Shown: positions 1 to 56,392 of the stretch, in pieces | Numbering within the stretch: the stretch's first letter is position 1 | How the letters are laid out: each line of letters opens with the position of its first letter | Assembly: GCA_028753945.1 (NCBI GenBank) | Contig: JAPNXP010000003.1 | Location: 5,704,001 to 5,768,000, forward strand | DNA length: 64,000 bases | Direction: 5' to 3' | Source of the DNA: Hexactinellida sp. DTS-2022 | Taxonomy: Eukaryota; Porifera; Hexactinellida | Translations under genes and position numbers: made by a program | Notes under the pieces: model-generated | Told to the model about the DNA's origin: nothing | Database searches by the model: none | What the model saw: only the letters and a program-made list of their open reading frames with translations

Positions 1-470
1 AACACTTTATCCCTGACTGACGTATAACACATGGTATAACACTTTATCCCTGACTGTACGTATAACACATGATATAACACTTTATCCCTGACTGTACGTA
101 TAACACTTGATATAACACTTTATCCCTGACTGACGTATAACACATGATATAACACTTTATCCCTGACTGTACGTATAACACATGATATAACACTTTATCC
201 CTGACTGTACGTATAACACATGATATAACACTTTATCCCTGACTGTACGTATAACACTTGATATAACACTTTATCCCTGACTGTACGTATAACACTTGAT
301 ATAACACTTTATCCCTGACTGTACGTATAACACTTGATATAACACTTTATCCCTGACTGTACGTATAACACTTGATATAACACTTTATCCCTGACTGTAC
401 GTATAACACTTGATATAACACTTTATCCCTGACTGTACGTATAACACATGATATACACTTTACCCTGCGC
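1..470. repeat. 38-bp minisatellite abutting the acceptor of the first visible exon
   Basis: About a dozen tandem copies of a 38-bp unit containing TATAACACTTTATCCCTGAC and GTACGTATAACAC. The array fills the visible part of the intron and ends a few bases before the acceptor at 484, whose own bases (TATAACACACAG) look like a truncated unit. Copies are close to identical, implying recent expansion. Confidence 0.92.
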
Positions 471-484
471 TGTATAACACACAG

Positions 485-3400
485 GTCTGTTGCTTGACGA
501 GGCTACTGTCCAGAGGAGCCCCTTCACGGTGCCGCCCTCCCTCTACAAGTGCGGGTGTGTGGAGACCCCGCAGAAGGGCCTGGAGGTGGCTAAGCAGATT
601 GGATTCCCAGTTATGATAAAGGCGTCCGAGGGGGGAGGGGGGAAGGGGATCCGGAAGGTTTGCTGCGAGGAGGAATTCCACACTCTCTTCAGACAGGTAA
701 CTACCTTGTATATAACTACAGTTGACTGATTATATGGACACAGATATGGCGAATTTGCATAGCCTATAAAACACATGCGAGTGACTCCGGTTGATACGAA
801 TTCAGGAAATTCCGTACAAATTTCTACGGTCCCCTTGTGTTCGTATGCGAGAGTCTACTTGTGTTTTACATTAGTTTTTATTAAAATTTAATTTAACATT
901 GTATATGTTGACTGCGTTATAACGAAGTGCTTGGAACCTGTAAATTCCTTCGTTATATCCGGATATTCGTTATATGCGGTAATTATTTATTTATTTAGTG
1001 CTCTGGGGGAAATCTCCATTACGTTTAAGTGGTTATTTGTTATATCCGACATGGTTATAACGGGAGTTCACTGTAGTATTGCTCTGGAGAAAAAAATGTA
1101 TTTGTTGTTAGTAGATATTCGGTATTGTCTTTTATTCAGAATGCTAGTTATTGTGATACTGTATAACTCTATTATATCTATTAGGTGCAGACAGAGGTGC
1201 AGGGCTCCCCCATATTCGTAATGAAGCTGGCTACCAACGCCAGACACCTGGAGGTGCAGATCCTGGCAGACGAGTCCGGCCAGGCCATATCTCTAATGGG
1301 GCGGGACTGTAGCGTGCAGAGGAGACACCAGAAGATCATAGAGGAGGCCCCCGTATCGATAGCACCCGCCGCTGTCTTCCAAGAGATGGAGCGAGCTGCC
1401 GTAAGGCTGGCTTCTATGGTGGGGTATGTGAGCGCTGGGACTGTGGAGTATCTGTATACAGAGGAGGAAGGGTTCTACTTCCTGGAGCTAAACCCAAGAC
1501 TTCAGGTGTTGCACTAGTGCAGTATTAGTACTGTAGTACCTCGTTAGTAGGGACACCAGGGGACAGTAATACTATGCTTTCGCCTTATCTGGAATTCGTA
1601 TCGTATTGAAAAGGCTTTGAAGGGGACTGAAATAGTCTTCGTATTTAACCGGAATTTCGTATTAACCGGTGTCAGTCGTATTGAGAAGGCTTTGAAGGGG
1701 ACTGAAATTGTGTTCATACTAACGAGGTTCTACTGTATTTAGAGCTTAAGTTATACCCTAAGTATCTTGCTTTCATCCAAGCAAAATTTATTGCTCGTCT
1801 AGATTAAGTTTGAGCTCTCACACGGCCTAGAATACACATTTATATTACTTCTATGGGAGCATCTCTCGATTTTCGCATACCTAGAAAAGTTTCCTTTCAA
1901 TTGAGAATCGTGCCGCCTGGATGAAACACTACTAAGGTTCTACTGTAGTACTTATAGCCTAGGTTATACCCTAAGTATCCACTGTATAACCTGTATAACC
2001 TGTATAACCTAAGTATAAACTGTATAACCTAAGTATAACCTGTATAACCTGTTAACCTGTATAACCTGTAGGTAGAGCACCCCTGCACCGAGATGGTGAC
2101 AGAGGTTAACCTGCCGGCTGCCCAGCTGCAGATAGCTATGGGGGTACCTCTCCACAGAATCAGAGACATAAGGGTGCTCTATAACGAGGATCCTCTGGGC
2201 AGCTCTAAGATAGATTTCTGTAACCCCAGACATGTGCCTGTACCCAGAGGGGCAGTCATAGCCTGTCGGATAACAGCTGAGAACCCGGACGAGGGCTTTA
2301 AGCCCAGCTCGGGTCGGATCCACGAACTCAACTTCCGGTCTAGCAGGAATGTGTGGGGATACTTCAGTCTGGGCGTTTCAGGGGGCCTGCATGAGTTCGC
2401 AGATTCTCAGTTCGGACACTGTTTCTCTTGGGGAGAAACCCGGGCCCAGGCCAGAGGGTCAGTTGCATGCCATCCTATACAGTATAGGCTATAACAGACA
2501 TGTCCATAACAGACATGTCTATAACAGACATGTCTATAACAGACATGTCTATAACAGACATGTCCATAACAGACATGTCCATAACAGACATGTCCATAAC
2601 AGACATGTCTATAACAGACATGTCTATAACAGACATGTCTATAACAGACATGTCTATAACAGACATGTCCATAACAGACATGTCCATGACAGACATGTCC
2701 ATAACAGACATGTCCATAACAGACATGTCTATAACAGACATGTCTATGACAGACATGTCCATAACAGACATGTCTATAACAGACATGCTGTATAGGAATA
2801 TGGTTCTCGCTCTGAAGGAGCTCATTATTCGCGGGGACTTCAGGACTACTGTAGAGTATCTTGTTAAGCTTCTGGAGACGGAGAACTTTCAGCAGAACAA
2901 CATACACACGGGTTGGTTGGATCAGCTGATCAGCGAGAGAGTCAAGGCGGAAGCTCCTGATACTATAATAGGTAGGAACCTAACTGTGTTCATTAGTTTA
3001 TGAGTTAATGATTAATTGATGATTTTATTTGGGATACTTGTATATCGGCCAACTCTTTTCAATATAAAACCCGGGTTCACAAAGATGAATTGTTGACATC
3101 TAACATGAATGAAAATGGCATAGAAAAAAGTGATTCTGTCCTGAAAAATCTCTCAATTAACCTAAGTAGAGCTAGGTAGATGTATTTCCAATAATATTTA
3201 ACAAACAGATTTGATACAAATCATGTTGGAACTGGAAGCGACATATATAATATACTTTAATTCAGTGGCTTCCAACCTGGGTCCACAAGATCTCAAAATC
3301 TATATTACGGGCGATGGGAGGGGGTCCACAGGATGTCTAATATTACTATAGGGGGTACACGGATGAAAAATGTTGGGAATCACTGCTTTAATTCGATTAA

Positions 3401-6400
3401 TACACGAACACAAACAGATGATATACATCATGTTGGACGGACATGTATAATATACTTAATTGTATTATTATAATTAGGAGTTATCTGTGGGGCTATCTGC
3501 ATATCTGAGGCTACATTCCAGAAGCGGTTCGCTGACTACAGAACCTGTCTCAGTCGGGGGCTCGTGCTTAACGCGGGGTTTCTTAACAACTCCGTTGACA
3601 TAGAGCTCACTTACGAAGGTGTCAAGTACACCCTCTCCTCCTCTCGGATAGGCCCCACTCTCTATCTCCTGGCGCTCAACGGGTCCCATCTGGAGGCTAG
3701 GGTGCATAGGCTTAGCGACGGGGGTCTCTTGATATCCACACAGGACAACAGCTACACTGCATACATGCGGGAGGATGTGGACAGACACAGGTGCTTGTTA
3801 TATGCTAGCGATTATAGGGACATGTGTGTGGGGTTATGGTGCTAATTAGAGCGTGTTAGTACAGGTGCTTATAATAGTAGACTAGCGCTTCTATAGGGAA
3901 ATATGTATGGGATAGTAGTACAGTTGTTATATTGAGAATAGATTAGTACACAAGATTGGTATTTTTAAATTGCTCTTAAATTAATTAAAGACTTGAAATT
4001 TGTCTCTCCTTATTTACATGCTGGCTATTTACAATATCAAACTACTGTCTTGTCTGCTTATTGGGAACAATATTTCGTCTGCTTAATATACAAACTTTGT
4101 TATGAACAAGGCTTATGATCCCAATTTATCAACTTACATAGAGTTTGTATTAAGTTGAGTTCGCTTTTTATCAACTCTCTATATTATGAACACACTTTTG
4201 TGCCTTGAGTGTTCACAACAAAAGAAACTGACTCTAGTTAGCATGCTTCCATCCATGCAAATTTTCTGCTCGCCTAGATTTAGTTTGAGCTCGCTCACAC
4301 GCACCTCAACACTCATTTTTGAGTTGACTGAATTAGACCGAAAATCTAGGCAGAAAATCTGATTTTCTAAGACTGGAATAAGACCGAATGGAATAAGACC
4401 GAAAAAAAATCAGGACTGGAATAAGACCGAATGGAATAAGACCGAAAATAATGAGTACTGGAATAAGACCGAATGGAATAAGACCGAAAAAAAATCAATA
4501 CTGGAATAAGACCGAATGGAATAAGACCGAAAAAAAATCAGTACTGGAATAAGACCGAATGGAATAAGACCGAAAGGAAATAAGTACTGGAATAAGACCG
4601 AATGGAATAAGACCGAAAAAAAATCAGTACTGGAATAAGACCGAATGGAATAAGACCGAAAAAAATCAGTACTGGAATAAGACCGAATAATATAAGGACT
4701 ACTCTGAAATACGTATCTATTGGTAAGAATAAAAGTGAAACCTCGACTTTCTAAGCGTGAATTATGGTTCATTGAGAAAACACCCGACTATGTGATTAAT
4801 GGAGAAAATACTCGCCTTTTTAAGTGTGATATATGTATCATGGAGAAAACACTGGCCACTCTAATTGTCTTTTATGGAGAATGGTTAAAACGCTCGCCTT
4901 TCTAAGTGTCTAATATTGATCAGGGTGAAAAGCAGCCCTTATATTTTTTCGGTCTTATTCCATTCGGTCTTATTCCAGTATTGATTTTTTTTCGGTCTTA
5001 TTCCATTCGGTCTTATTCCAGTACTGATTTTTTTTCGGTCTTATTCCATTCGGTCTTATTCCAGTACTGATTTTTTTTCGGTCTTATTCAATTCGGTCTT
5101 ATTCCAGTATTGATTTTTTTTCGGTCTTATTCCATTCGGTCTTATTCCAGTACTGATTTTTTTCGGTCTTATTCCATTCGGTCTTATTCCAGTACTGATT
5201 TCCTTTCGGTCTTATTCCATTCGGTCTTATTCCAGTACTGATTTTTTTCGGTCTTATTCCATTCGGTCTTATTCCATTCGGTCTTATTCAGGTTTCCCTC
5301 ATTTTTGTATATTTATCTCTCGATTTTCGCCTAAAAAAGTTGCCTTTCAAATTATTCGCATCGCACTGCCTATATAAACCCCTGCTATATACTATTTATT
5401 TGTGTAGGTTTGTGATAGACGGCAAGACGATAGTGTTTACGAAGGAGACTGACCCGAGTCTGATAAGAGTCTCCAGTCCGGGTAAGCTATTACAGTACTT
5501 CCCGCAAGAGGGCACCATGGTCTGTGAGGGGGACACTATTGCTGAGATCGAGGTTATGAAGATGGTCACTACCGTCCTCTCCTCTGCCACGGGAGTTATC
5601 AGCTTCGTTAAGAGACCCGGGGCCGTCTTACAAACAGGGGATGTTATTGCTACGCTAGAGTTAGATGATAGTTCTATGCTTATACAGGTACGTATGTACT
5701 GGGAATGGTATAGTAGATGCCGGTATAAGAACACTGGTTATAACTTATAAGAACATTCTACTGGATAACGGTTGCCATATACCCCTATTAATATATGTCG
5801 GTTATAAGAACATTATATGCAGTTCCCGACGATGTTCTTATAACCGGTATCCACTGTAAAGGCAAGGAATTATCCAGGAGCGCGAGACGCTCCTATGGGA
5901 GTATGATTTTTGAAAATATTAATTAGGAGCGCGAAAATTTGGAATCTTCTCCTATACCGTAACATTAATTTGTGATTTAGGCGTATGGAAATTGGATCAG
6001 ACCAGGATTAAGAGCGCATTTACAATGCCTGTACAATACACTGGATATATTATATACCGTATTTCCTCGAATAAGCGCCGGGTCAATGAAATGGCATTGG
6101 TAATATGGTATGATACAATTTAAACACATTAATTGATTACTACACAAGTTTCAGTTACAGTGGTGTTCGCCTAATAGCAATATTGCTCAATTAGCAAGTC
6201 ATTTTCAGTCCCCAAGCGAGCATTTAATGTTAATTCTGTTCCTCTAATAGCAAGTTCGCATATTAGCAAGCAAATTTCATACAAAATGCGACTTGCTATT
6301 ACTGGAACACCACTGTACTACTATTTATGTTATACTGTGTATTATCTAGGCGGACCCCTACACAGAGCAGTTCCCTACCCATCTAACCACACCAAAGGTT

Positions 6401-9400
6401 TCTACCGAGAAGGTTAGCAACTCCTTCCAAGACGCACTCGAGAGGATACAGTACCTAATGTCCGGCTTCGCTCTACCGGAGTCCATCGCTAGACATCACA
6501 TGGAATCCGTGCACAGCAAACTGATCAGCTGTTTGAAGGACCCGAGGCTCCCTCTGCTGGAGCTGCAGCAGGTCATGTCGAGTCTGTCCGGGAGAATCCC
6601 GCCGGATGTGGATAGAGGGATAAACGATGAGCTCAGATGCTATGAGAAGAACTGTACCTCGCTTATAGTCCCGTTCCCAAGCCTGCCGGTTAGTTGGGAT
6701 TGGGAAGAAGTTAGATTATTGAACTTGTGAATACAGTAGTGTTTGAAACATAATAGCAAGTCGCATTTTGTATGAAATTTCCTTGCTAATAGGCGAACTT
6801 GCTATTATAGAAACAGAATTAACGTTAAATGCTCGCTTGTGTACTGAAAATAAATTGATAATAGAGTAATATTTTCTATTAGAGCAATTGCTATTAGGCG
6901 AACACCACTGTAGTATAAATTTTGTTGTTGTAATTGTACAAGGACTTAATTCATTATACAAACAGGCTTACAATAGGTGAATTTTTGATGTTAAAATGAC
7001 TTTACAAATGTTACGCTGGAAAAGGCAATATATACTTGACTTTCTTTCATAAGAACATCAGGTGACTGTCAAATTTATTCGTATTATCCATAAGCCAGAG
7101 TCACTTGCATGCATTTGTATAGGCAGGGGAATTAAACTTTGTACTCCTTAACCGATAGATAGTTGGCCTTATCCGTGTTCTTATTATCGAGAGTCTACTG
7201 TACAAATAACTCTTTAATTGCTTACTCCATTGCTTTATCTATCAATACCAATATCTTTATCAATAACCAATTTCAATATCAGTCTACTGTATAGTAATTC
7301 CATAATATAATCCATTGCTTTCCTTTCAGATAACAAACATTCTGGACATGCACGCGGCTTCCCTCAAGCAGCAGGCCGAACAGAATGCATTCTATCTGTC
7401 CACTCAGCCTATTCAGGATGTGGTCAGGAAGTTTGCTAACGGAATTATTGGGCACTTGAAGTCCACTATAATAAACCTGCTCAGCGAGTACTACAGGTGT
7501 GTTGTAGATAGCAACAACTTAATTGCAGGAATCTAATTAATATATATACTAAGTAAGGCAGAAAAGTCTGTTAACACATTTGAAGAAGTAGTATAAAGAA
7601 ATATAAAAATATATAGACAATAAATACTATCAGGATTTCGTCTAGTATTTCGTTTTACCCAGAGTAAAAATTAATTACTCTATCCGTTTGGGAAATATAG
7701 AGTAAAACATCCTTATAAGCAGATATTTCGTTATATCCTACTTCGTTATAACATTAGATGGTTTACTGTATTCAAAATTACTTGCAATTTGAAAAAACCC
7801 TACTTTGTTTTAAAAACCAGGAAATACTTTCAGTATTGTTCACAAACAGTGGTTATTCCCTACATTACAATACAATTAATATCATTACCCTCTACTAATA
7901 TATAGAGTGGAGAAGGTATTCAATCTGAACACATATGAACAGTCAGCAGAGCTCCTTAAGGCCTCACACAATGACGACATTAGCAAAGTTACAGACGACA
8001 TATTCTCTCACTTCTACGTGAGTTGTAAGAACTCCATCGCCAATAAGATTATAGCGGACCTGGGTAATCTGTCGGGGCAGCTCAGTGATGAGGTATACTC
8101 CATTCTACACGAGCTGACTACTCTAACCAACCATAAGAACTCCAAGGTCAATCTAGCCGCCAGACAGGTAACTGTACATACATGCAGTGTGTTATACAGC
8201 ATTTGTAAATACGCTCCTAATCCTCGTCTGATCCAATTTTCATACGCCTAAATCACATATTAATGTTGGGTATAGGAGAGGATTCAAAATTTTCGCGCTC
8301 CTAATTATATATTTACCAAAAATCTTGCTCCAAAAAGGAGCGTCTCGCGCTCCTGGATAATCCCTTGCATGTATGATTCATATGGTATATACGCTTCTCA
8401 CAGTGTTTATAGTATTTGCTAACTATACAATCCAATGGTCATTAGTTGTAAAATTGTACGATTTTAAAACTCCATGTTTATTTAATTCTTATAACTTATA
8501 ATTTAATAATTTAATTTTAATGTAATTTGATTATTTATTCTGATTTCGCTCCATTTATTTGTTAGTTTGTTAGTTTGTTAGTTAGTTAGTTAGTTAGTTA
8601 ATTTGTTTGTTTGTTTGTTCATTCGTTTATTTGTTCATTTATTTATTTGTTTATGTACTTGTTGGTTGTTTGTTTGTTTGTTCATTTGTTTATTTGTTCA
8701 TTTGTTGTTAGTTTATTTATTTGTGTATTTACTAATTCTATTTATGTATGTATATATTGGTTATTTAGGTGTTAATCCAGAGCCTGCAGCCCCCGTACCC
8801 GGTGCGCTATAATCAGGTTCAGTCCATATTCCTGCAGGCGGTGGCAGAGGACGAGTTTGCTTCCGAGAAGCTGCAACAGCTGATTCTCTCGGACTCAAAT
8901 CTATTCGATATTCTCCCTCAGTTCTTCTACCACCGCAACTCCTCCGTATGCAGAGCAGCGCTGGAGGTAATGCCACAGCTAACTAGCTAGCTAACAATAG
9001 CTAGTGTATAGTTATAAGCTGTATAATACGCGTATGCATATTAGAAATAGATTTAGTAAATACAACATATTTGTACGTAGTATATGCATAATAAGTTATT
9101 TTGACATACCAAACTTGTTTTTATTCAATGACATGTTCCATAATTTGGCTACATAATTTGTAGTTATCTAAAATATTACGTACGTACTACATACAGTAGT
9201 CTCGTTAGTAGGAACACAGTTAATACGAACAGTATTTCTCAATTCTTCAAAGCCTTTTCAATACAAACTTCATTAGTTAATACGAATTCTGGATAAAGCG
9301 ATTACATTTTGACGGTCCCCTAGTGTTCGTACTAACGAGGTTCTACTGTATTATAACTTATAATTAAACTTACGTATAACACTTGGTGTACATATTAATC

Positions 9401-12400
9401 AGCTCTCACTAGGTGTATATCCGTCGGGCCTACACCGCATACGACATATCCTGTCTGAGTCACTGCCGGCTCTCAGACGCTACCTGTCTGGTGCTCTCTC
9501 AGTTCACTCTCCCCTCCTCGCACCCACACAGACAGGCAGTCACGAGACGCGCCTCCCTCATAACCAGAGAGGAGAGCTACTCCAACCTAGCGGACCTCGT
9601 CTCTAAGACACAGGATGTGCAGAGAGTAGCGCTACTGGCGGCACTAGACTCGTTAGAGCATGCTGATAAGTTAGTTGTTACATACGTACAGTAGATACCG
9701 GGTTAAATACCAAGTTAATACCAACTAGTTAATACCAAGTGTATAAATACAGTATGCAGCTGATAAGTTAGTTGTTACATACAGTAGATACCAGGTTAAT
9801 ACCAACTAGTTAATACCAAGTGTATAAATACAGTATACAGCTGACAAGTTAGTTGTTACATACAGTAGATACCAGGTTAATACCAACTAGTTAATACCAA
9901 GTGTATAAATACAGTATGCAGCTGATAAGTTAGTTGTTACATACAGTAGATACCAGGTTAATACCAACTAGTTAATACCAAGTGTATAATACAGTATACA
10001 GCTGACAAGTTAGTTGTGTACATACAGTAGATACCAGGTTAATACCATTAGTTAATACTAAGTGTATAAATACAGTATACAGCTGACAAGTTAGTTGTAC
10101 AAATACAGTATGTATATCCAGCTGCGATCATTAAATAGTAAAACAAACTTCTATGTGCACTGTGCAGTATATAGAGTGGAAAATAGTTTTTGTTGGAAGA
10201 GTAGTTTGTTGTTGCAACGATTTAATTATACGTAGTTGCAAAGTGTGTTTATAACTTTATACTATACACAAGTTAGCTATTAATCAGCTTCGCGCGTACT
10301 AACGGTAATCTGAGTAATACAAAACTTGAAGGGGACTGAAATAGTGTTCGTATTAACCGGAATATCATATTACCGTGTTTCTACAAATAGAGCCACTGTA
10401 TACTATTCCCATACTAATGTGTGTGTAGATATCTGACAGACCTGATAGACTTCCTACAGTGGCAGTCTCGGCAGAACTCCCCCACCAGTCTCAGCTCAGA
10501 CTTCGACAGCGCTCTCTCCTCTCCCACCGTCTCCAGTCTGGAGAGCCCCGTGGACATGCTGGAACATAATGCAAGTCTATTCTTTGTTATACTTATGTTA
10601 ATACCGTTATAACTCCATATTGTTGTCAAACTGAATCAGGGTTTCATCCAGGAAAATTTTCTGCGCGGCTAGATTAAGTTTGAGCTTACTCACACGCTCC
10701 TAAAGTACTCAATTTGTATTACGTATATGGGAGCATCGCTCGATTCTTGCACACACCTGGATGAACCCTGAACTGAATACTACTTATACTATTTGGCAAA
10801 GCTCAACCGAATATTCAACTATAGTAGAACCTCGTTAGTACGAACACCAGGGGACCACCAAAATATGTTCGCCTTATCCGGAATTCGTAATATCCAAGTA
10901 GTTTGACCCTGTTCGTATTAAGTATTAACCGTGTTCGTATTGAGTATTAACCGTTTTCGTACTAGCGAGGTTCTACTGTATTCGGTTACAACCTTAGTTA
11001 AAACCAGTCTTAAACTCATATCTATTTACCATCGAATGATCTAATACTCCAGGGGCCTTCTAAATTTTCTAAAAGGGGCCTTCTAAGTTTGTATTAGTTA
11101 TTACTATTGCCTTCATCTAGTTTGTATACTATTGCCTGCACAATATAATTTGTATACAATTGCCTTCACAATATAGTTTGTATTAGTTATTACAATTACC
11201 TTCTAGTTTGTATAATATTGCCTTCACAATATAGTTTGTATTAGTTATTACAATTGCCTTCTAGTTTGTATAATATTACCTTCACAATATAGTTTGTATT
11301 AGTTATTACAATTGCCTTCTAGTTTGTATAATATTACCTTCACAATATAGTTTGTATTAGTTATTACAATTGCCTTCTAGTTTGTATAATATTGCCTTCA
11401 CAATATAGTTTGTATAAGTTATTACAATTGCCTTCACCTAGTTTGTATACTATTGCCTGCACAATATAATTTGTATACAAATACAATTGCCTTCACCATC
11501 TAGTTTGTATAAGTTACTATTGCCATCACCATCTAGTTTGTATACTATTGCCTTCACCATTTAGTTTGTATAAGTTACTAATGTTGCCTTGTAGTTTGAG
11601 GATAACTGGAACCTGCCTAACATAATGTACCTGTCTATCCCGGCTGTCTCTCTGGAGGGTGCCCCCGGTACCGACCTGGATAAGCTGCAGGTGTTCCTGA
11701 ATACCCACTCCGAGCTGCTGTCCCTTAACAAGATACGGAGACTCACGTTCCTAATCATTCGAGAGAAGACTTATCCCGTGTTCCACACATTCAGAAACAG
11801 ACTTAATGTGAGTGTATAGTGAACTCCCGTTATAACTAAGTCGGATATAACGAAATAACTGCTTATAACAAAATGGGGATTCACTGTATATTGATACAGT
11901 GGATAACGGTTATATGAACAGGGTTGGAGTAGAGCAATGTTCTTATAAACGATACTTTTCAATAGTGATAAATAGAACCATTACAGGAAAATTCAAAACT
12001 ATTTTATATCAGATTTAGTTAATAGCATTTACCACTTAATACAGTACACCCTCGCTAATCCGAACGGGAGACCCAAAATTTATTTAATAATATAAGTAAC
12101 AAAAATTAAATATAGCTATATTACTATGGAATGAGAAATATATTTTAAGTAGTTCACTAGATATTTTGTTCGGATTATCGCGGTCATCACTTTATAGATG
12201 CCTATAGAAAATGTAATACGTACTTCACTAATCGGATCAGTAATTTTTAGATCAAACACTGCTGTTCGGATTAGCGAGTGTGTACAGTATATATTCTTAA
12301 CAAGTAGTATCGGGTATAATTCTTGTGTTCCTATCTGTTTAGTGGACTGAAGATTCCATCTACAGACACCTGGAGCCAGCTCTGGCCTTCCAGCTGGAAC

Positions 12401-14853
12401 TAACTAAGATGAGCAACTTCAAAATAGTTCGTATCAACGTTAACAATCCTACCATTCACTTCTACTTTGGGACCGCAAAGGTATTCAGCTTTAATAAACA
12501 AACAAACAAACAAACAAACAAATAAGTAAACAAACAAACAAATAAATATACAAACAATAAATAAATAAATAAAGTTAAGGACTTACCATAAGCATTCTAT
12601 GGGACTAACTTAATTTTCTGGATCGGGGATTGGTTAGTACATTCAACTAAATATATGCAATGCAATTAAAAAGCATGCTGTAAAAAATCATGCTGCGAAA
12701 AAAGCATGATGTTAACAAAATTATTTTGCTAATGGCTATTTTGCTAAATGCCATTTTACAGGTGTATTATAAGTAATTCCATATAAACAGAATTACTATT
12801 TATATAACTGTTATTAGGTTGAGGGAGGCAGTAAGGTTACCGACAAGAGATTCTTTATCCGCTCTATTCTGGGACACTCGGACCTGGTAGATCGGTCCGC
12901 TTCTCTGGAGTACATGATTAAGGAGGGAGAGAGAACCTTCTTAGAAGCTCTGGATTATCTCGAGTTGTTCTTCACAGAACCGCAGTACCAGCCGTCTGAC
13001 TGCAGTCACATATTCCTACACGTTATACCCACCGTCATCATAAACCCGCTTAACGTATGATGTTAGATAGTTAGATATACAGTAGAGCCTCGTTAATACC
13101 TACACCAGGGGACCGTCAAAATGTGTACTTATCTTAAATTCGTGTTAACTGGTGTCATTTTTACTGAAAAGGCTTTGAAGGGGGCTGAAATAATGTATGT
13201 ATTAACCGAAAATTCGTATTAATTGGTGTAATTTGTAACGAAAAGGCTTTGAAGGGGACTGAAATAGTGTACGTTTAACCGAAAATTCGCATTACCGTGT
13301 TCTTTATAACGAGGTTCTACTATGTTACTGTCTCTACATTCCTATTACCCTGTACCGTAACCAGGTAGAAGAGGAGCTCTACAAGATGGCTATGACTCAC
13401 GCTATCCGTCTGCTGAGACTGAGAGTAACTGTGGCGGAGATAAAGTGCACTGTGCGCGTTTCCGAGGATCCGCACTCTTGCGAGGAGAATATTAGATTCT
13501 TCCTAATTTGCGAATCCGGATTCTATCTCAAGATATACGCGTACAGGGAAATAGAGGGGCCAAATGGTATGCCATGTGTTGTATTGTTAAGCTGCTAGCA
13601 ACTGTTAGTTACTTTTAAATAACAACATAAATATTATTCATATTAGAAAATAGAAATTTGCAAATGCGAAATTCAGCATACTTGTTCATCTATGATCTAT
13701 TGTAATCACTTGGAAGTTAGTCTCTATCTCAACTATTAATGCGTTTCATACCCTTATCAATTTAATGCAACTGGCCAAACAAACAAACAAACAAACAGAC
13801 AAACAATAATCTAATTTAATAATAATGCAAACTCGACCATCAGAATACACCTGGCTGGTAAATTCGTTCAGCCTTAAATTATCCGAATATGTTAGACTGT
13901 CCCAAAGAGTTCGAATAATCTATGTACGTAGTATACTTATTAATTAATTGATACTAAGTATAGTATATAAATCGTGTTGTTATACCTGTTAGTATTTGGT
14001 ATTTAGCATTGAGACTGTCTATATTAACATTATCATCTGTTTCCAGGTAATCTAATATTTGACTCTATCTCGCTGGGGCGGGGGCGGGGCCCGCATCACG
14101 GCATGAAGGTGCACTATCCGTACCTGACTAAGGACCACCTGCAGTCCAAGCGCTTCACAGCACAGTCCATGGGCACCAGCTACGTGTACGACTTTCCGGA
14201 GATATTCCAGCAGAGCCTCAAGCTGCAGTGGGAGCTGTATGCTGAGAGGAGCAGGCATAAGGTGAGCATTCCTGAGGAGCTCATGGTTGCTACCGAGCTA
14301 GTGCTATCTGATGATGAGACTGCATTGGAAGAAGTTAATAGGGTGTCTGGGCTGAATAAGGTGAGTGTTGTTGTTGTTGTTGTTGTTGTTGTTATTATCA
14401 GGGTTTCCCCACTTTAAAAACCACTTACACAACGAAGTTTTAATTTATGCCCCCTTAAGAATGTACATATCCCAGATTGCCCCCCTTACATGCAAATCCT
14501 GTATGAAACACTGATTATTATTTGTTATTATTGTTGTTATTATTGTTGTTGTTATAACTATTGTTGTTGTTATTGTTGTTGTTGTTGTTGTTGTTGTTGT
14601 TATTATCAGGGTTTCCCCACTTTAAAAACCACTTACACAACGAAGTTTTAATTTATGCCCCCTTAAGAATGTACATTTCCCAGATTGCCCCCCTTACATG
14701 CAAATCCTGTATGAAACACTGATTATTATTTGTTAATATTGTTGTCCTTATTGATGTGTTGTTGGTGTTATTATTGTTGTTGTTAGTGATATGTTGTTGG
14801 TTTTATATTATTGCTTCTTCTTCTTGTTATTGTTGTTGTTGTGTTGTTATTGT

Positions 14854-14886
<33 letters not shown>

Positions 14887-17800
14887 CTTCTTCTTCTTGT
14901 TATTGATGTATCGTTATTATTACTGTTGTTGTTATTGTTATTGTTGTTGTTGTTGTTGTTTACAGGTGGGGATGGTCGCTTGGAAGCTGCGGCTCTACAC
15001 TCCCGAGTACCCCGGGGGGCGGGACATAATCCTGATATCTAACGACATAACATTCCAGATCGGTTCCTTCGGTCCCAAGGAGGACATCGTGTTCCAGCTG
15101 GCTTCCCAGCTGTCCAGGCGACTCTCGCTTCCCCGCGTCTACATTTCTGTTAACAGCGGAGCTAGGATAGGCCTGGCAGAGGAGGTTAAGAAGCTGTATA
15201 GAGTGGCATGGGTAGACCCTGGTGATCCGGATAAAGGGTACAAGTACCTGTATCTCACTAGCGGAGAGTTTGCAGAGGTGAGTATACACGTATTAGGATT
15301 GTTTGTTCGGGAGAGAATTAGATTATTCTCTTATTAATTCGTAATCTTGTAAATACCCTATCAGGCCTATCTAAAGTCAGGTCTGCTTATTTTAAACATT
15401 TTTCGTCTGCTTTATATGGAAATATTTTATTATAAACAAGCCCTTTGGTGACAAATACTGACAATTTAAGAACTTACATATAGTTTTGTATTAAATTGAA
15501 GTCGTTTTATGAAGTCTCATTATTAACACAATATTTCTCCCTATAAAATATAATAACCTGACTGTATGAGATTACTAACATACATGCAGTCGACAACCTT
15601 TAATCCAAATACCCGTTAATTCCAACTTTCACTAATTCGAACAAATTTATTTTTCCCTTCGAAGCCCCTCCCATACAATATCCGTTCCATAATTCGAAAT
15701 TCGTTAATTCGACCAAATTTATTTCCCTTGAGTGTTCGAATTAACGGATGTTGACTGTACAGTAGATGTCGGATATAAGCACACCAGTTTATGCCGGTTA
15801 TAAGCACATTAAGTGCAACTCCCAACTATGTGCTTATAACCGACATCCACTGTAATACAGTGCTACGATGAATACCTTTGCTGTATATATATATATATAT
15901 CCTTATTACGCTGCACTGTAGTTATCGAAGAAGGGCTCTGTTAAGGCTGAGCTAATAGAGGAGGGGGGGCAGAGCAGATACAGAATAACAGACATTATCG
16001 GGGAGAAGGACGGTCTGGGAGTTGAGAACCTTAGGGGGTCTGGCGCTATCGCTGGAGAGACAAGCCTAGCGTACGAAGAAGTAGTGACCATTAGTCTTGT
16101 GACCTGTCGAGCTATCGGCATAGGGGCGTACTTGGTGCGATTGGGACAGAGAGTTATTCAGGTTGAGGACTCGCATATAATTCTAACTGGGGCCGGGGCG
16201 CTTAACAAGGTGTTGGGAAGAGAGGTGTATCTGTCTAACTATCAGCTGGGGGGAACGCAGATAATGCATAATAACGGTGAGTAATTGGATGGATTTATAA
16301 GTACAGTTGAAACCGGTTTTTTCTAACCATTTCTTTTCAGATAAAAATAGTTAGTAAAACCGATAGTTAGAAAAAACCGATGAAAAATACTAGTAAAGTT
16401 GGAATTTTTTACAAAAGATTGCATTACCAATAGTTAGAATAAACCGATAAGTTAGAATAACCCGAGTTAGAATAAACCGGTTTCGACTGTACAGTAGTGG
16501 TCGCCAAGGATTTATCCAGGAGCGCGAGACGCTTCTTTTGGAGTATGATTTTTTTGAAAATTTTAATTAGGAGCGTGAAAATTTGGAATCTTCTCTTTAT
16601 ACTGCAACATTAATTTGTAATTTAAGCGTATGAAATTGCATTAGACCAGGATTAGGAGCGTATTTACAAATGGATTTATAATACACCGTGTTCGCCTATT
16701 AGCAATTGCTTTAATAGCAATTTATATTGCCTCTTAGCAAGTTATTATCCCGTTATATCGATGTCAATCCTTGTTTCCGACTATTTGAATGTGTCTACGC
16801 CCCTGTAATATCCTTTATAATGCAAACATTAATTTAGACTATATAATATAATATTCTTTATAGACTCATTAAAATAACATAATTCGTTTGAATTAGTGAC
16901 GGAAAATGTAGCGATGTTTTAACAGATTCCTTTTACATTGTGCTTCAATTTTGTTTTGATTGTTAGTTTCTTGGTGATTATATTAGCAAATAGCGAATAT
17001 AAACATTCAATATAATTGCCTGCAACAAAACTTCGATTTCAAAACAGAGAATTAACAGTGTTACTTTATTTTCAATTAAGAGGCAGAAACTGAATTTAGT
17101 ATAGAATTTAATATTAATTTATTGAACTACACTTATAATTAGTCAGCTCATAATTAAGTAACAATTAATAAATTTATCACCAATAATAATCTTTTTCTAT
17201 GGTTTTGCATTATGTATAAATTGGAAGGAAAATATTTACAATAACCACAATAACATTTGTCAAAAGGGTATTACCAATTATTAACAGTATTGGCTTTAAT
17301 AAAAACGACGATACATCTCTTCATGATAATCTCTGAGAAGCGGCTTGATTTTATCGTTAATTCGGATGAGATTTCGTTTCTTTCTACAATACTTAAAGGT
17401 TATTACGAATGTCACATACCCATAATTAAGGTTGAGCAAGAGTTGATATATTATTCCAATATATTTACTTGGGAGCTCTATAAAAGTGGCCCATGCCTTG
17501 TTAGTGAAATAGGATCGATTGAGGATAGAAATGTCCTGATTTAGAGCCGACACGTCAAAACTTATTGTCGACAAAATACTAAATATAAACGCAATACTAA
17601 CCAAGATTGTTGCTATTTTGAAATGAATACGAACATACTTCCTCGATATAATCTCCTTTATCCATAAATAGTTTAGCTTCTAATTCTCTGCTCTTCAAAA
17701 GTAAATAAAAACGTTTTGCGTAAATACAGTATGTAGTTAAGTCAATGATAGCGAACGCAGTTGCCATTGAAAAGTTTGTGGTTTTACGTATTGAAGCTAT

Positions 17801-34350: not shown

Positions 34351-34409
34351 TATTATGAGGGGCGAAACGATACCTACAGACTAGACTCAATTCACAGGTC
34401 TAGAATAAA

Positions 34410-41968: not shown

Positions 41969-41977
41969 ATCACTGCC

Positions 41978-42590
41978 TTTATTATTCGTGAAATTGGATT
42001 TCTTGTTCGAGAAATTGGATTTCTTGTTCGTGAAATTGGATTTCTTATTCGTGAAATTGGATTTCTTGTTCGTGAAATTGGATTTCTTGTTCACGAAATT
42101 GCATTTCTTGTTCGTGAAATTGGATTTCTTGTTCACGAAATTGCATTTCTTGTTCGTGAAATTGGATTTCTTGTTCGTGAAATTGGATTTCTTATTCGTG
42201 AAATTGGATTTCTTGTTTGTGAAATTGGATTTCTTGTTCACGAAATTGTATTTCTTGTTCGTGAAATTGGATTTCCTGTTCGAGAAATTGGATTTCTTGT
42301 TCGTGAAATTGGATTTCTTGTTCGAGAAATTGGATTTCTTGTTCGAGAAATTGGATTTCTTATTCGTGAAATTGGATTTCTTGTTCGAGAAATTGGATTT
42401 CTTGTTCGTGAAATTGGATTTCTTGTTCGAGAAATTGCATTTCTTGTTCGAGAAATTGGATTTCTTGTTCGTGAAATTGGATTTCTTGTTCGTGAAATTG
42501 GATTTCTTGTTCGTGAAATTGGATTTCTTGTTCGTGAAATTGGATTTCTTGGTCTTGAATTGGATTTCTTGTTCTTGAAATGGAATTTCT
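41978..42590. repeat. 21-bp minisatellite, open on both strands
   Basis: About 29 copies of TTCTTGTTCGTGAAATTGGAT, with variants GAG for GTG and CAC for GTG. Because 21 is divisible by three, it gives a 278-codon reverse ORF (NFTNKKS repeats) and a 204-codon forward ORF (LFVKLDF repeats). No conserved flanking domain or splice context supports either as a real protein. Confidence 0.9.
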
Positions 42591-42599
42591 TGGTCTTGC

Positions 42600-46900: not shown

Positions 46901-48530
46901 CTACGACCCCTCCTCCCTATTCGACAACAGTCTCCTACCCACTAACGATCTCCCAGACAGTTCTCTGCTTAACCAACTCGACCTGCCTTCTCCCTCTCTT
47001 ATATCCCACCCAAGGGACTCCACAGAGCTCTCTCCGCAACAGACAGACACACCCGTACTACACACTGTAGCTAGTCCCCCTTATGACGTCACGCCGGTGG
47101 CACTGTATGATGCTATAGCAGATACAGACGTTATGCCCGAGATGGATACTGCTGGTTAGTATTAGGGCAATCCAGTGTATTAACAGACATTTGTAAATAC
47201 GCTCCTAATCAGTGTATTATACAGACATTTGTAAATACGCTCCTAACCAGTGTATTAACAGACATTTGTAAATACGCTCCTAATCAGTGTATTGTACAGA
47301 CATTTGTAAATACGCTCCTAATCAGTGTATTGTACAGACATTTGTAAATACGCTCCTAACCAGTGTATTGTACATACATTTGTAAATACGCTCCTAATCC
47401 TGGCCTGATCCAATTTTCATACGCCTAAACACAAATTAATGTTACGGTATAGGAGAAGATCCCAAATTTTCGCGCTCCTAATTAAAATTTTCCAAAAATT
47501 ATACTCCAAAAGAGCGTCTCGTGCTCCTGGATAGTTATAGATTATGTTAAATCCCATTGCCAATCTGAAACGGATTGAAAAATAATCTGAAAATTTCAAA
47601 CCCCATGGTATTAAATCCCAAAATTTATAGTAATTAATGGGAATTAAGGATTCAATCAGTTTATTCTAACTATCGGATTTTTCTTACTTTATTTCCATGC
47701 AAAAAATTGGTTTAAACCCGGTAATACTATACTATAACATACTGTCTATAAATACAATCTCCAACTATTTACCTATATTAACAGGGTTAATACTATACTA
47801 TAACATATAAGTATCTTTCCAGGAGTGGATCAGATATCGAATGAGAGAGAAGAGGAATTAGAGGAGAGAAGATGGACACAGAGAGTTCATGTGTTCCTAA
47901 AAACTCTCAAAACTAACTTTAGAGATAAAGAAGAGCTCTCATTCTTCTCTGACCTAACAAACGAATCCTGTAACCGCAAGAAGGCTGCCACTGTCCTATA
48001 TTCGTGTCTCTTGCTAGCCAAAGAGAGCACCATTGTAGTTAGGCAGGACGAGGCATACGGGGATATTGCTATCAGAAAAGGTAGTCTATTATGTGTCTAC
48101 AGTAGCTTAGTTAATACGGACATTGTTAAGGAGATATATCAGTTAATTACAGTAGAACCTCGTTAGTACGAACACTGTTAATACGAATTTCCGGATAAAA
48201 CGAACAAACAGTTCCACAAAATCAGGTCCCTACAACGGCATTCAATGGGTATTACTCCGGTTTATACGAACTCCGGAAAAGCTAGCAAATTTTACCGTCT
48301 GTTGGTGTTCCTACTAACGAGGCTGTAATTTGAACAAATTTCGACGGTTCTACTGTAATTAGAACAAATTTCGACGGTTCTACTGTAATTAGAACAAATT
48401 TCGACGGTCCCCTGGTGTTCATATTATTGATTGTCTAATATACAAGTAATACACAGTTTGTTACAATATTTTAATTACGAATTGTATATTTATAGGTAGC
48501 GGAAGTAAGGACTCGACATTCAGCTTATGA
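43955..48530 (+). CDS. RAD21: Double-strand-break repair / cohesin subunit RAD21 (SCC1) homolog
   Basis: Kleisin subunit that closes the cohesin ring; acts in the nucleus in sister-chromatid cohesion and chromatin looping. Exons 43955-44340, 45234-45760, 46107-46402, 46821-47154, 47823-48080, 48496-48530; 611 residues, near the usual 600-630. The N-terminal SMC3-binding domain is clear (AKKGPLYTVWLAANWEKKLT, ALRTSAHLLLGVVRIYSKKT, AFRPGIIDLP). The middle is acidic and proline-rich, with a KRKRKLIIDSCK block in exon 3. The C-terminal winged helix is in exon 5 (EERRWTQRVHVFLKTLK, NRKKAATVLYSCLLLAKEST). Exon 2 carries an in-frame 21-bp repeat. ATG 43955 gives exactly the conserved spacing to the KKGPL motif. 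An AATAAA lies near 48580. Confidence 0.96.
44381..44784. mobile_element. Nested elements in RAD21 intron 1
   Basis: The outer element has CCCCGAATAAGCGCC at the left and GCTTATTCGGGGAAATACG at the right, and is homologous to about 27491-27715. Inside it, 44535-44670 is a 136-bp hairpin with CAGGGCCGTAGCCACC and GTGGCTACGGCCCTG termini, flanked by AATTA on both sides. The IDH3A copy lacks this insert, so it marks the pre-insertion sequence. Confidence 0.85.
44785..45233. other. Rest of RAD21 intron 1
   Basis: About 45085-45185 is a CTTATAACCGGCATCC element of the family at 15760-15852. The rest has no recognised feature. Confidence 0.5.
45583..45666 (+). repeat. In-frame 21-bp coding repeat in RAD21
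   Basis: Four tandem copies of ATTGATACTCCCCTG plus six variable bases encode IDTPLQP, IDTPLQL, IDTPLEL, IDTPLEL in the unstructured acidic linker. Third-position identity between copies implies recent duplication. Confidence 0.95.
47175..47530. repeat. About 38-bp array grown from the end of a short transposon
   Basis: Six copies of CAGTGTATTGTACAGACATTTGTAAATACGCTCCTAAY-type units begin about 20 bp after the donor at 47155 and lead into a full GGAGCGTCTCGTGCTCCTGG element ending about 47530. The unit equals the terminus of that element, so the array arose from the transposon end. Confidence 0.85.
48149..48430. mobile_element. CTCGTTAGTACGAACAC element with duplicated 3' end in RAD21 intron 5
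   Basis: Starts CAGTAGAACCTCGTTAGTAC 68 bp after the donor and reaches ACTAACGAGGCTG. It is then followed by a small tandem of ACAAATTTCGACGGTTCTAC units, again growing from the element end. Confidence 0.75.
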
Positions 48531-51895: not shown

Positions 51896-52745
51896 TGTAT
51901 AGGCTCTATAGGGACATTAGATATATCTATGTAGGACGCTTTGTGAGATATGTTTAGAATATAGACAGACAGTTCGTATTAACGGAGAAATACCATTGAA
52001 TAGCCATTGTAGAGACCTGATTTTGTGAAACTGTTTGTTCGTCTTATCCGGAAATTTGTATTAACCGTGTTCGTACTAACGAGGTTCTACTGTATAGCGA
52101 AATTATACACAGGTTTCCATTATTGTTAATTTTCCTAACTTTTCGATTTTCCCTCTAATTTACTTAAGACACGGACGGTTAATACGAAATTATGGTTAAT
52201 ACCAACACAGTCCCTTTCAAAGTATTTCATTACAAACTTTATTGGTTAATACGAATTCCGGATAAAGCAAACTCATTTGACGGTCCCCTGGTGTTCGTCT
52301 AACGAGGTTATACTGTATTAAGAATACAATTATATCCAATCCAATAAGATCGCTTTGCATTAGAAATACTATAAATTTATATAGTGTTGTTCTAACTTCT
52401 AAATAGCATTTGTTCTAATAACAAAAAACAGTTACGTATTTTCAGTCCCCAAGCGAGCATTATGTCCCTCTAATAGCTAACAAATTTCCTACTACTAAAT
52501 GACATTCCATTCAATGTATTATACAGCCGCTTGTAAATTCGCTCCTAATCCTGGTCTGGTCCAATTTGAATACGCTTAAATCACAAATTAATGTTACGGT
52601 ATAGGAGAAGATTCAAAATTTTCGATCTCCTAATTAAATTTTTCCAAAAATCATACTCCAAAAGGAGCGTCTCGCACTCCTGGATAATTCCTTGATTTCA
52701 TTCCCTATATCTCTCCATATACCCATTAAGCTATTAAGCTATAGC
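51896..52745. other. EIF3C-NUDC intergenic region
   Basis: Two CTCGTTAGTACGAACAC copies (about 51970-52095 and 52165-52320), a fragment of the TTCGCCTATTAGC family (about 52410-52500), and a GGAGCGTCTCGCACTCCTGG element (about 52530-52688) ending about 58 bp before the NUDC ATG. Confidence 0.6.
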
Positions 52746-55700
52746 ATGGAGGATCCCCTGGAGAAGTACGACGGCATTCTGATGACGATAGCGCAGCAGC
52801 ACGGACAGGGGGGCATAGAGGCGCTGCTGGACACTTTCTTTGGGTTCCTGAGAAGGAAAACAGACTTCTTTCAGGGCGCTCAGAGTCTGCCCAATGTATG
52901 TTAGCTATTTATACAATATACAAATATATACGAATTACGAACCTCTAAAGTAATTACCTTGTAAATACAATAGATCATGGTATAATACGAAGACAGATAA
53001 GGCCAAATATCAGTTAAGGAATACAAGGTTTATTTCCCCTAGCCTATACAAGCATGCAAATGACACCGGTTATTGCGAATTCCGGACAATACGAATAAAT
53101 TTCGACGGTCCCCTGGTGTTCGTATTAACAAGAGTCTACTATATAGATGTTTAATATAAACACAATATATAAGTAGGTATGTTTATAATTAGGTTGAGCA
53201 GATAATAACAAGGAGTTTGCGTAAGGAGTTTAAGATATTCAAAGAGGAGAGAGATCGCGAGAACAAGGCTAAGGCGGACAAGGAGGAGAAAGCTAGGAAA
53301 GCTAAGGAGGATAAAGAGAGAGAAGAACAGAAGGGAAAGGTTAGGGAGGTCACGGATGAAGAGGCTAAAAGGTATATAGAGAGAGTGTGTTTATTTGTTT
53401 GTAGTTAGTTTGTTTAGTTGTTTGTTTAGTTGTTTGTTTACAGGTTTGTTTATTGCTTTGTTTAGTTGTTTGTTTACTTGATTGTTTATTTGTTGCTTAC
53501 TAGTTTGTTTAGTTGTTTGTTTACAGGTTTGTTTATTGCTTTGTTTAGTTGTTTGTTTACTTGATTGTTTATTTGTTGCTTACTAGTTTGTTTACAGGTT
53601 TGTTTATTGCTTTGTTTATTGGTATGTTTATTTGTTTGTTTAGTTGTTTGTTTAGTTGTTTGTTTACTTGATTGTTTATTGGTTTGTTTATTGGTTTGTC
53701 TGTTTGTTAGGATTGAGGGTGGAGAGAGCGTACCGGCTCCTGAGGTTCCTCTAGAAGGCAAGAGCAAACCTACTGAGACGGATTCTGATAGCAAGTCTGG
53801 TGAGAAAGTAGATTCAATCGGGGATCTGTAGATCGTTAAATTCAGAGTTTAACTTCAATACTTATCCTAGCTATATTAATGTTGCAGGCGAAAATGAGTT
53901 TTAGACGAAATTGAGACTAAATTGCGCCTAGTTTAAATTGAGTCTCAATTTCGTCTAAAACTCAATTTCGCCTGCAACATAAATATAGTTAGGACAGTAT
54001 TGATGTTAAACTCTGAATTTAACGATCTACGGATCCTCGATTGAATCTACTTTCCCCTACTGTAAGATTGTACACTTGACAGGGACTTATTAAGGGAATA
54101 CTATACTATACTCAATACCTTAGTTACGCTATGATACAATTGTTATGTGTATTAATGTGTTTAAGATGGAGAGGTTGAGAAGGATGAGGACGATGATCCT
54201 ACGAAACTGAAACCGAACGCCGGCAACGGAGCCGATCTAGAGACCTACAGCTGGACACAAACTCTCATTGTAAGCCAAGTCTTTGTTACATTATACCGTC
54301 GACTCCGCTTAATAGAGTCACCTCGAGACCAGGTTAATTTGACCCGATTAAGCGGATAAATATATTAACCGAAAATATTTTAAGCCAAAATGTAATTCCG
54401 TTCTATAAATCCTGTGAGATTTTGACCCGATTAAGCGGAGAAATCTATTAACCGGTGGCTCTATTAATCGGAGTCAACCTTATATAAACTGAATGGAATA
54501 TTCGAAATGTAACGAACTGACATTTTCTAAACCAATGAATATTCGACTATAAGTTCGTTTTGATGACTAAGAATTAAATTAAATTCAGGACTCAAAATAC
54601 AGTGGAAACAACAATTTAATAATGTTCTAAAGTGTGTTTATATACCCAAGTTAGCTATTAATCAGCTAGTTTAGATAGGAATTATATTAACGATCTCTCT
54701 AATCTATACAAAATCATGTTGTTGCCCTAAAGTAGTAAACAAATATTCGTTTAAAACGAATATTCGGTATATTCGTTCAGTCCTAAATATAAGTCTCATA
54801 ACTATAGCATTCCTATGCTCCTTCGTGTTGTTAGGATATCGAGGTTAAGATCCCTCTGGTTGGGAAAGTCCGGACAAATGATATCACAGTTAAGTTCGAA
54901 GTGGAAAAGCTCTTCGTACAAATTCGGGGCCAGCCGCCTGTCATTAACGGAGACCTGCAGAAAAGAGTGAGTAGTGACAAACAAACAACAACACAATTAT
55001 ATTCAAACAACAGTACACACAACAACACAAACAACAACACAAATATCAACACAAACAACAACACAAATATCAACACAAACAACAACACAAATATCAACAC
55101 AAACAACAATACAAATAACGATACAAACAACAATAGTACAAACAACAACACGAATTACATTCATATAACAATACAAATAATAACACAAATAAATACAAAC
55201 AACATTTAAACAACACACAAACAATACGGATAACAAATAATCATGTTGCAGCGTATTAGAAATTTTTAACATACAAACTCACACATCGTTTAACATACAC
55301 TGCACAACATTACAAACAACACACTACAGTGGAGCTTCCCATAACGGACACTCCAAATAGCGGACAGCCTCTAAATAACGGACAACCCTCGTGGCACGGA
55401 TTTATTTATTTAGCATATGTCTAATAGAAAAGCAACCTCTAAATAGCGGACAACCTCTAAATAACGGACAACGGTTCCGGTCCCAAGGTGTCCGTTGTTC
55501 AGAGGCTCTACTGTATATACAAATACAATATGCTATAAGATCTCTAGTTATTGTATGCCGTATAGATAATGCCGGATTTCTGCACTTGGCTGATAGACGA
55601 CAATGCAGTGCAGCTACAAATGGAGAAGAAGAACAAGAGCGAGTGGTGGTCCAAACTAATGAATTCTGATCAGGAAATTAATACAAAGAAAGTAACTCCT

Positions 55701-55878
55701 GAGAACTCCAGACTGTCAGACCTTGATGGAGAGACCAGGGGTTAGTTTGTTAGTTTGTTTTGTTAGTTAGTTAGTTAGCTTTGTTAGTTTAAAACTTAGT
55801 TAGTAGTTTGTTTGTTAGTTAGTTTGTTAGTTTGTTTGTTAGTTAGCTTTGTTTGTTTGTTGGTTGGTTAGTTCGTTC

Positions 55879-55909
<31 letters not shown>

Positions 55910-55995
55910 CGTTCGTTCGTTAGTTTGTTCGTTAGTTAGTTTGTTAGTTTGTTTGTTAGTTAGCTTTGTTTGTTTGTTGGTTGGTTAGTTCGTTC

Positions 55996-56026
<31 letters not shown>

Positions 56027-56392
56027 CGTTCGTTAGTTTGTTCGTTAGTTCGTTTGTTTGTTTATTTGTTTGTTTATTTGTTTGTTTGTTTGTTTATGTA
56101 TGTATTTATTTGTTTGTTGTTTGATTGTTTGCTTGATTATTTATTTGTTTGTTTGTTTGCTTGATTATTTATTTGTTTGTTTGTTTGTTTGTTTGTTTAT
56201 CTAATTGTTTGTCTGTTTGTTTGTTTGTTGTTTATCACACTGTCTCTAGGTGTTGTCGAGAAGATGATGTACGACCAGCATCAGAGGGAGCAAGGCCTGC
56301 CCACTTCAGAGGAAAAGCAGAAACATGATATTCTCAAGAAAATAATGGAGAAAAATCCTGGCATGGATTTCTCGAACGCTAAGTTCACCTAG
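52746..56392 (+). CDS. NUDC: Nuclear migration protein NudC
   Basis: Dynein/Lis1 pathway co-chaperone with a CS (p23-like) domain. Exons 52746-52895, 53193-53371, 53711-53799, 54166-54269, 54835-54966, 55566-55740, 56250-56392; 323 residues versus 331 in human. Exon 1 has the conserved N terminus ([32 protein letters not shown]). Exon 2 is a lysine/glutamate coiled coil. Exons 4-6 form the CS domain ([52 protein letters not shown]). Exons 6-7 are the conserved tail ([37 protein letters not shown]). Every intron has GT-AG ends and most are filled by microsatellites or short transposons. Confidence 0.97.
53372..53710. repeat. TTTG/TTTA microsatellite making up NUDC intron 2
   Basis: GTTTGTTTAGTTG-type sequence from a few bases after the donor to the acceptor, including a duplicated block (about 53435-53515 and 53516-53600). 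Lysine/glutamine/asparagine and cysteine/leucine ORFs across it are artefacts. Confidence 0.93.
53804..54052. repeat. About 250-bp near-perfect palindrome at a NUDC donor
   Basis: The left arm starts 4 bp after the donor at 53800 (GAAAGTAGATTCAATCGGGG) and the right arm ends with its complement (CGATTGAATCTACTTTC); arms are about 115 bp and about 90 percent matched around a centre near 53929. The inner 50 bp of each arm (TTGCAGGCGAAAATGAG / CTCAATTTCGCCTGCAA) resembles the ends of the 31.75-35.95 kb transposon. Confidence 0.9.
54296..54478. mobile_element. ACTCCGCTTAATAGAG-family MITE in NUDC intron 4
   Basis: CGTCGACTCCGCTTAATAGA ... TCTATTAATCGGAGTCAACC inverted ends, 26 bp after the donor at 54270. 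A same-family copy lies 6 bp after the first donor of IDH3A and 15 bp after that of the IQGAP-like gene. Confidence 0.78.
54967..55565. repeat. NUDC intron 5: ACAAACAAC array and a MITE
   Basis: About 54980-55230 is a tandem array of AACAACACAAATATCAACAC units. About 55328-55515 is an inverted element with CAGTGGAGCTTCCCATAACG ... TTGTTCAGAGGCTCTACTG ends and internal repeats of CTAAATAACGGACAAC. Confidence 0.85.
55741..56249. repeat. GTTAGTTTG microsatellite making up NUDC intron 6
   Basis: The donor GTTAGT is itself the first unit of a GTTAGTTTGTTT array that continues, with a duplicated block of about 120 bp, to just before the acceptor at 56249. Confidence 0.93.

Follow-up and report, generated by a model that had tools for sequence, protein, structure and literature searches.

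Tandem arrays lying on exon-intron boundaries are described in a few reports. In amphioxus, minisatellite-like tandem duplications of these boundaries, named 'mirages', occur in Adh3 and in the globin genes BflGb6 and BflGb9; reverse transcription PCR (RT-PCR) pointed to normal splicing, and the authors described the cause as unclear (PMC3087553, which cites Canestro 2002). Human IFI6 (6-16) is a single-gene case of a minisatellite made of splice donor sites, two downstream units of which are reported to be used as donors (Turri 1995, cited in PMC4526556), and in potato an RdRp gene gained an intron by tandem duplication across an intron-exon boundary (PMC4974935). The present work concerns long tandem arrays that abut splice junctions in the sponge Hexactinellida sp. 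DTS-2022, in and around a stretch of 64,000 nucleotides, hereafter the window (C12:5704001-5768000; contig JAPNXP010000003.1), of an assembly totalling 112.4 Mb in 18 contigs (GCA_028753945.1). These arrays resemble the amphioxus mirages, and they are frequent in the genes examined here.

The likeness to the mirages lies in units that span the junction at 5' or 3' boundaries, 10-160 bp in length and many of them with AG or GT. In amphioxus the regular site is still used, as judged by RT-PCR (PMC3087553); here the use of the outermost site is supported indirectly by the reading frames. The mirages are described from few genes; the present survey counts 87 introns with a control set, finds a junction bias of long arrays and includes simple repeats. 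On the published definition only five of 27 arrays would be mirages, the rest abutting a junction without exon bases or being unanchored. In the case of IFI6 (PMC4526556), the resemblance is to the NUDC array at donor 55741, which has donor-like units, but none of the 102 GT sites of the NUDC array scores up to the real donor. The potato duplication also crosses a boundary and takes its signals from the parental junction, although there it made a new intron and here many copies lie inside one (PMC4974935). The tandem dual-specific splice sites of polyubiquitin form an array of splice sites within a gene too, but they delimit coding monomers and are not intronic (PMC10809524). Among titles and the opening lines of abstracts, in a search outside which most subscription papers lie, we recognised no genome-level count of such arrays.

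Our results indicate that long tandem arrays lie at splice junctions more often than uniform placement allows. The full set comprises 87 hand-curated introns of 10 genes of this one assembly. The main measure was the number of arrays of at least 100 bp that come to 15 bp or less from a junction at either end, set against 20,000 shuffles in which each array was dropped uniformly within its own intron. So measured, 17 of 27 arrays are anchored where 7.45 are expected (p at the floor of 5e-5). When the window genes are taken together with the intron whose acceptor is 484, the count is 9 of 19 (null 4.9, p 0.003), and among the replication introns outside these it was 7 of 7 against 2.5, then 8 of 8 against 2.55 once 20 kb had been added (47 introns). 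Seven of the 10 genes have anchored arrays. Of the other three, RAD21 has an array 17 bp from its junction, and the CDK and WASP genes have none. A sequence-only reading of the window had claimed that arrays sit on junctions beyond chance, and the comparison of array distances with shuffled positions, run on all 87 introns, bears this out for arrays of at least 100 bp and fails to do so for shorter ones. The 15-bp and 100-bp cuts were picked after the window and loci L016, L017, L028 and L029 had been seen; only the last 20 kb, with 12 introns and one array of at least 100 bp that was already half seen, came after they were set. An early window-only test on arrays of any length gave p 0.003-0.07 over eight cut-offs, and in the replication set, with arrays of every length counted, no excess is left at a 50-bp cut (8 of 19 against 6.7).

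Dispersed repeats, which we take to be of the miniature inverted-repeat transposable element (MITE) kind, account for 20% of the sequence in the first intron set and 41% in the second, and served as the control. In repeat-collapsed coordinates 18 of 26 arrays of at least 100 bp lie within 15 bp of a junction (9.1 expected), against 11 of 85 dispersed blocks (15.6 expected), and the anchoring is found both in simple arrays (8 of 11) and in those with longer units (10 of 15). A direct comparison of elements of at least 100 bp in the same introns places 16 of the 26 arrays within 15 bp, against 5 of the 60 dispersed blocks (Fisher 5e-7). Since arrays are anchored and the dispersed blocks beside them are not, anchoring is a property of long tandem arrays and not of other repeats in the same introns. 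Geometry alone, that is, short introns holding long arrays, is excluded for long arrays by the uniform and repeat-collapsed nulls, and repeat packing in crowded introns is excluded by the unanchored dispersed blocks. Arrays of at least 100 bp cover 17.5% of the bases of 74 introns (bootstrap 11-25%; the intron of a 5.9-kb array excluded) and 3.3% (1.8-5.1%) of 16 random loci not used for genes. Coverage by these arrays is 20% beyond 100 bp from a junction, 17% at 40-80 bp, 14% at 20-30 bp, 13% at 15-20 bp and 4.5% at 0-5 bp; the arrays extend to the splice signal and stop there.

The 39 window introns were curated by hand so that exons join into open frames, the sole basis of the gene models. 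A hidden Markov model gene finder recovered 35 of the 39 exactly, and the curated introns were used in its place for the tests. Replication drew on loci at a preset position (2.00-2.01 Mb in every one of the 18 contigs) and on 20 kb upstream of the window. Curated genes were obtained from 2 of the 18 fixed-place loci, and L029-L032, which extend two loci, were chosen after arrays had appeared there. The 47 introns belong to PPP4R1, INTS3, AIDA, PP1, a CDK-type kinase, WASP and, for one more intron, the carboxylase gene of the window. INTS3 was named by a PDB match, AIDA and PP1 by the Pfam domains Aida_C2 and metallophosphatase, and WASP by Pfam WH1; PPP4R1 is what we take a gene with Pfam HEAT repeats to be. 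Before counting, we left out the 5' part of AIDA, the introns on either side of an exon missing from the CDK gene, a single intron of INTS3 and weakly supported predictions at the other random loci. One WASP donor (12564) is off by one base, in an intron without an array.

The window holds most of an acetyl-CoA carboxylase gene, IDH3A, RAD21, an intronless eIF3C and NUDC. The carboxylase was identified by its Pfam biotin-carboxylase and carboxyl-transferase domains, the rest of its exon order being presumed to follow the human protein; IDH3A was named by a PDB match, and RAD21, NUDC and eIF3C by Pfam. Tandem Repeats Finder (TRF) reports 43 merged arrays. They occupy 24% of all bases in the 39 introns; outside the gene spans, over 26.5 kb, they occupy 4%. 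Thirteen junctions had been named from the letters as carrying a tandem repeat at or across the splice signal, and all appear to be splice sites: exons join into open frames at the predicted acceptors 484, 2071, 2795, 8768, 11594 and 20699 and at the predicted donors 9670, 14361, 27020, 47155, 53372, 54967 and 55741. Eleven of the 13 have a TRF edge at a distance of 0-17 bp, with 0 entered for the overlapping arrays of 11594 and 27020, and each of the 13 has either an array edge or a unit that contains the junction. At 9670 TRF places the start 37 bp in, yet gctgataa/GTTAGTTGTTAC (the slash marks the junction) occurs three times with 0-1 mismatch in 20; at 20699 the TRF end is 81 bp short, yet the 41-bp unit contains ccctatag/acatgtac. 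Arrays are hard to assemble and gene models are open frames, so that mis-assembled arrays, or junctions misplaced onto array edges, might be suspected. We hold such an artefact to be highly improbable: frames join through GT-AG or GC-AG junctions, the alignment of IDH3A to its PDB match runs gap-free through 27020, and the pattern recurs on three contigs. GC donors occur at 10571 and 20063 of the carboxylase gene, and both of these GC-AG introns have an array at the acceptor or related to it.

The units of five of the 27 arrays of at least 100 bp carry exon bases in register, at 9670 (8 bases), 11594 (4), 20699 (8), 27020 (40) and in PPP4R1 (4); the four in the window bear out the 'at least four cases' of the sequence-only reading. 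The PPP4R1 array (intron C9 15816-16609; L029 6286-6613) has 8.1 copies of 41 bp, with six inner acceptors in exact register with the real one and a seventh one base out. Its copies and those at 27020 are 99% alike, and these two arrays are therefore probably young. Chains of decoy splice sites had also been proposed, and these hold for a minority: of the 30 arrays of at least 75 bp, 8 contain a decoy that matches or exceeds the real site in strength, and the array at 20421-20618 has four acceptors that equal or exceed 20699. A general enrichment of decoys in arrays was not found, good decoys per kb numbering 1.4 donors and 2.0 acceptors inside arrays and 1.8 and 1.45 outside. Twenty inner sites were tested over four introns (4 in IDH3A, 5 and 5 in the carboxylase gene, 6 in PPP4R1), and each of them would introduce a stop codon; at 9670 two of the five inner donors are one base out of register and a stop codon precedes all five. 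Since every tested inner site brings a stop codon, the full protein would need the outermost site, with which the frame stays open; this supports its use indirectly, although in PPP4R1 an inner site would alter only the last ~20 residues.

A tolerance of arrays wherever the outermost site stays dominant had been one of two explanations offered at the outset. The stop codons agree with it, but tolerance by itself predicts no excess at junctions, and the excess of long arrays over uniform placement makes it insufficient. The other was a mutational process starting at splice sites, for example from breaks or R-loops, which is not established in view of the coverage and the short arrays. In the form that we tentatively prefer, at a confidence a little short of even, duplication or slippage starts in or across splice signals and survives because the outermost site is used. 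The founding duplication would often fall either in a low-complexity signal (the T-rich tract before an acceptor, or GTTAGT-like donors) or, as a short duplication, across the exon edge. The array would then expand on the intron side through slippage or unequal exchange, and arrays seeded at junctions may grow more than others. It would persist if splicing, perhaps through exon definition, keeps the exon-adjacent outermost copy, the protein remaining unchanged and the inner copies leaving with the intron; an array occupying the whole intron would also supply the signals that the intron requires. We place seeding this high because exon bases occur in units and the two arrays with 99% alike copies sit on junctions.

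Several results weigh against seeding at junctions. Exon bases were not seen in the units of the other 22 of the 27 arrays, where random junction-spanning duplications should carry more. Copied junction-spanning 20-mers are excluded as a general signature, an intronic copy without indels being found at only 3 of 150 junctions. The contrast between arrays and dispersed blocks shrinks at a 30-bp cut (18 of 26 and 14 of 60), and because dispersed repeats were masked by comparison within 284 kb only, the length left to the introns is probably overestimated, a bias towards an excess. Coverage by arrays of at least 100 bp has no peak at the junction. Arrays below 100 bp, the closest stand-in for young seeds, have no junction excess either (3 of 32 within 15 bp against 1.98, p 0.32), in a test made weak by the many short arrays that are two-copy stretches within dispersed repeats; those outside such repeats (14 of 27 in a 75-intron set) have none, at 1 against 0.76.

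The unanchored short arrays lower the weight of seeding and raise that of a boundary model. According to this model, arrays are seeded anywhere and overrun their flanks, or the flanks are deleted, until a splice signal is reached and selection stops them, anchoring being the end state. The restriction of anchoring to long arrays is what it expects, as are a coverage that falls off gently as far as 20-30 bp from the junction and sharply only within the final 20 bp, and gaps between array and junction that match minimal signals (donor information ends near +6). Six introns, those at 2458, 14361, 53372, 55741, C9 14011 and AIDA 3243, have no more than 6-39 bp that belong neither to arrays nor to dispersed repeats, and their unique sequence seems lost or overrun. 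By itself the boundary model gives no units with 4-40 exon bases, and it leaves unexplained the two arrays with 99% alike copies exactly on junctions. We consider it a possible account of somewhat lower probability than seeding, and the two readings remain close.

The shortest curated intron has 71 bp, more than any of these remainders, so that in the six filled introns the array must supply what the spliceosome needs. Tandem duplication could also have created some of the introns that are almost wholly array, as the duplication model of intron gain proposes; boundary-crossing duplication is documented in potato (PMC4974935) and has been proposed for the amphioxus globins (PMC3087553). Arrays also adjoin the junctions of introns rich in unique sequence, however, and such a birth is improbable even for some of the filled introns. 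The same dependence on the array for internal signals might suggest that arrays are retained as an aid to splicing, whether as a T-rich polypyrimidine tract, an enhancer or a buffer of spare sites. Six of the seven simple-sequence arrays found no more than 16 bp from an acceptor are T-rich and the seventh (1965-2070) is balanced, while five A-rich arrays, three of them below 100 bp, lie 97-341 bp from an acceptor and none within 90 bp; both patterns were noticed afterwards. In three arrays on the acceptor side AG occurs at most 0.5 times per 100 bases, and the 5.9-kb array ahead of acceptor 484 lacks the AG dinucleotide altogether. However, the orientation fits a filter for a working acceptor as well as seeding in a T-rich tract; on the acceptor side two arrays exceed other intron sequence in AG (6.7 and 7.9 against 4.9 per 100 bases), and decoy density is alike inside and outside arrays. 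Units vary among introns, A-rich arrays occur at donors and most introns have no long array; retention for function thus seems to us to have little likelihood.

Arrays of the window are collected in Table 1. Six arrays of at least 100 bp lie away from junctions and had gone unlisted in the sequence-only reading (4372-4688, 4798-5289, 13136-13294, 18915-19141, 28515-28833 and 28887-29043).

Table 1. Tandem arrays in the window and their relation to splice junctions; the last four rows are counter-examples
Array	Position	Strand	Relation to junction
End of 5.9-kb array, 38-bp unit	1..467	+	Ends 17 bp before acceptor 484, degenerate copy between
9-bp unit	1965..2070	+	Touches acceptor 2071 (cctgtag)
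15 bp x 20	2489..2787	+	Fills intron 2458-2795; non-array remainder 39 bp
TTTG/TTAG	8553..8758	+	10 bp before acceptor 8768
81-bp unit	9707..10110	+	After donor 9670; unit holds last 8 exon bases and donor
Array across acceptor 11594	11121..11616	+	Ends across acceptor; unit ccttctag/tttg against ccttgtag/tttg
AAAC, 81 bp (below 100-bp cut)	12493..12573	+	12 bp after donor 12481
TTG tracts and duplicated 208-bp block	14364..14960	+	Fill intron 14361-14965; 6 bp outside arrays and dispersed repeats
41-bp unit	20421..20618	+	Upstream of acceptor 20699; unit holds acceptor and 8 exon bases
IDH3A, 116 bp x 4.4, 99% alike	26980..27491	+	Starts 40 bp inside exon, repeats donor 27020
RAD21, 38-bp unit	47172..47399	+	17 bp after donor 47155; unit resembles dispersed-repeat end (by eye)
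NUDC, TTTG type	53388..53699	+	Fills intron 53372-53710; 13 bp outside arrays and dispersed repeats
NUDC, CAAACAACA	54977..55224	+	10 bp after donor 54967
NUDC, GTTAGTTT	55741..56233	+	Starts at donor 55741, ends 16 bp before acceptor 56249
Two arrays, inverse-complement units	4372..5289	+	Intron 3791-5407, at least 118 bp from junction
74 bp x 2.2	13136..13294	+	81 and 70 bp from junctions of intron 13055-13364
ACAA	18915..19141	+	97 bp before acceptor 19238
Two ATTTG-rich arrays	28515..29043	+	Mid-intron, intron 28197-29261

The array that ends before acceptor 484 begins 5.4 kb before the window (L028 4591). With ~154 copies by length that are 97% alike, it occupies the greater part of a carboxylase intron, and by eye there is overlap between its first unit and a dispersed repeat's end. 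The arrays at 47172-47399 and L016 9247-9351 consist, also by eye, of the 30-40 bp termini of dispersed, MITE-like elements. The units at 4372-4688 and 4944-5289 are reverse complements (TGGAATAAGACCGAA and TTCGGTCTTATTCCA), and the transcript could form a long hairpin. One long array lies outside introns, a 240-bp AACA repeat (L032 2841-3080) ~200 bp downstream of the WASP stop codon.

Single-exon genes on two contigs (window 30161-31411 and L031 7542-8798) are closely alike by eye, upstream region included, which points to a dispersed gene family; Pfam finds NHL repeats in the window copy. A similar-looking coding stretch, again by eye, is nested on the minus strand in the last carboxylase intron (22990-24150). 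Most of the 132 kinase-domain matches listed across the genome (127 of 419 candidates scored) cover the domain in one open frame, in a search that favours intact domains, hinting at many intron-poor genes.

Splice junctions might be a general birthplace of long tandem repeats across this genome, some of which overtake introns together with their signals and remodel intron ends while the outermost site is conserved; at present we regard so broad a claim as unlikely. If it held genome-wide, intron ends would be starting or stopping points for tandem repeats, and these genes would offer natural experiments on how the spliceosome chooses among near-identical copies, on intron lengthening and on intron birth. 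The amphioxus mirage would then pass from a curiosity to a measurable process, with dispersed repeats as its control.

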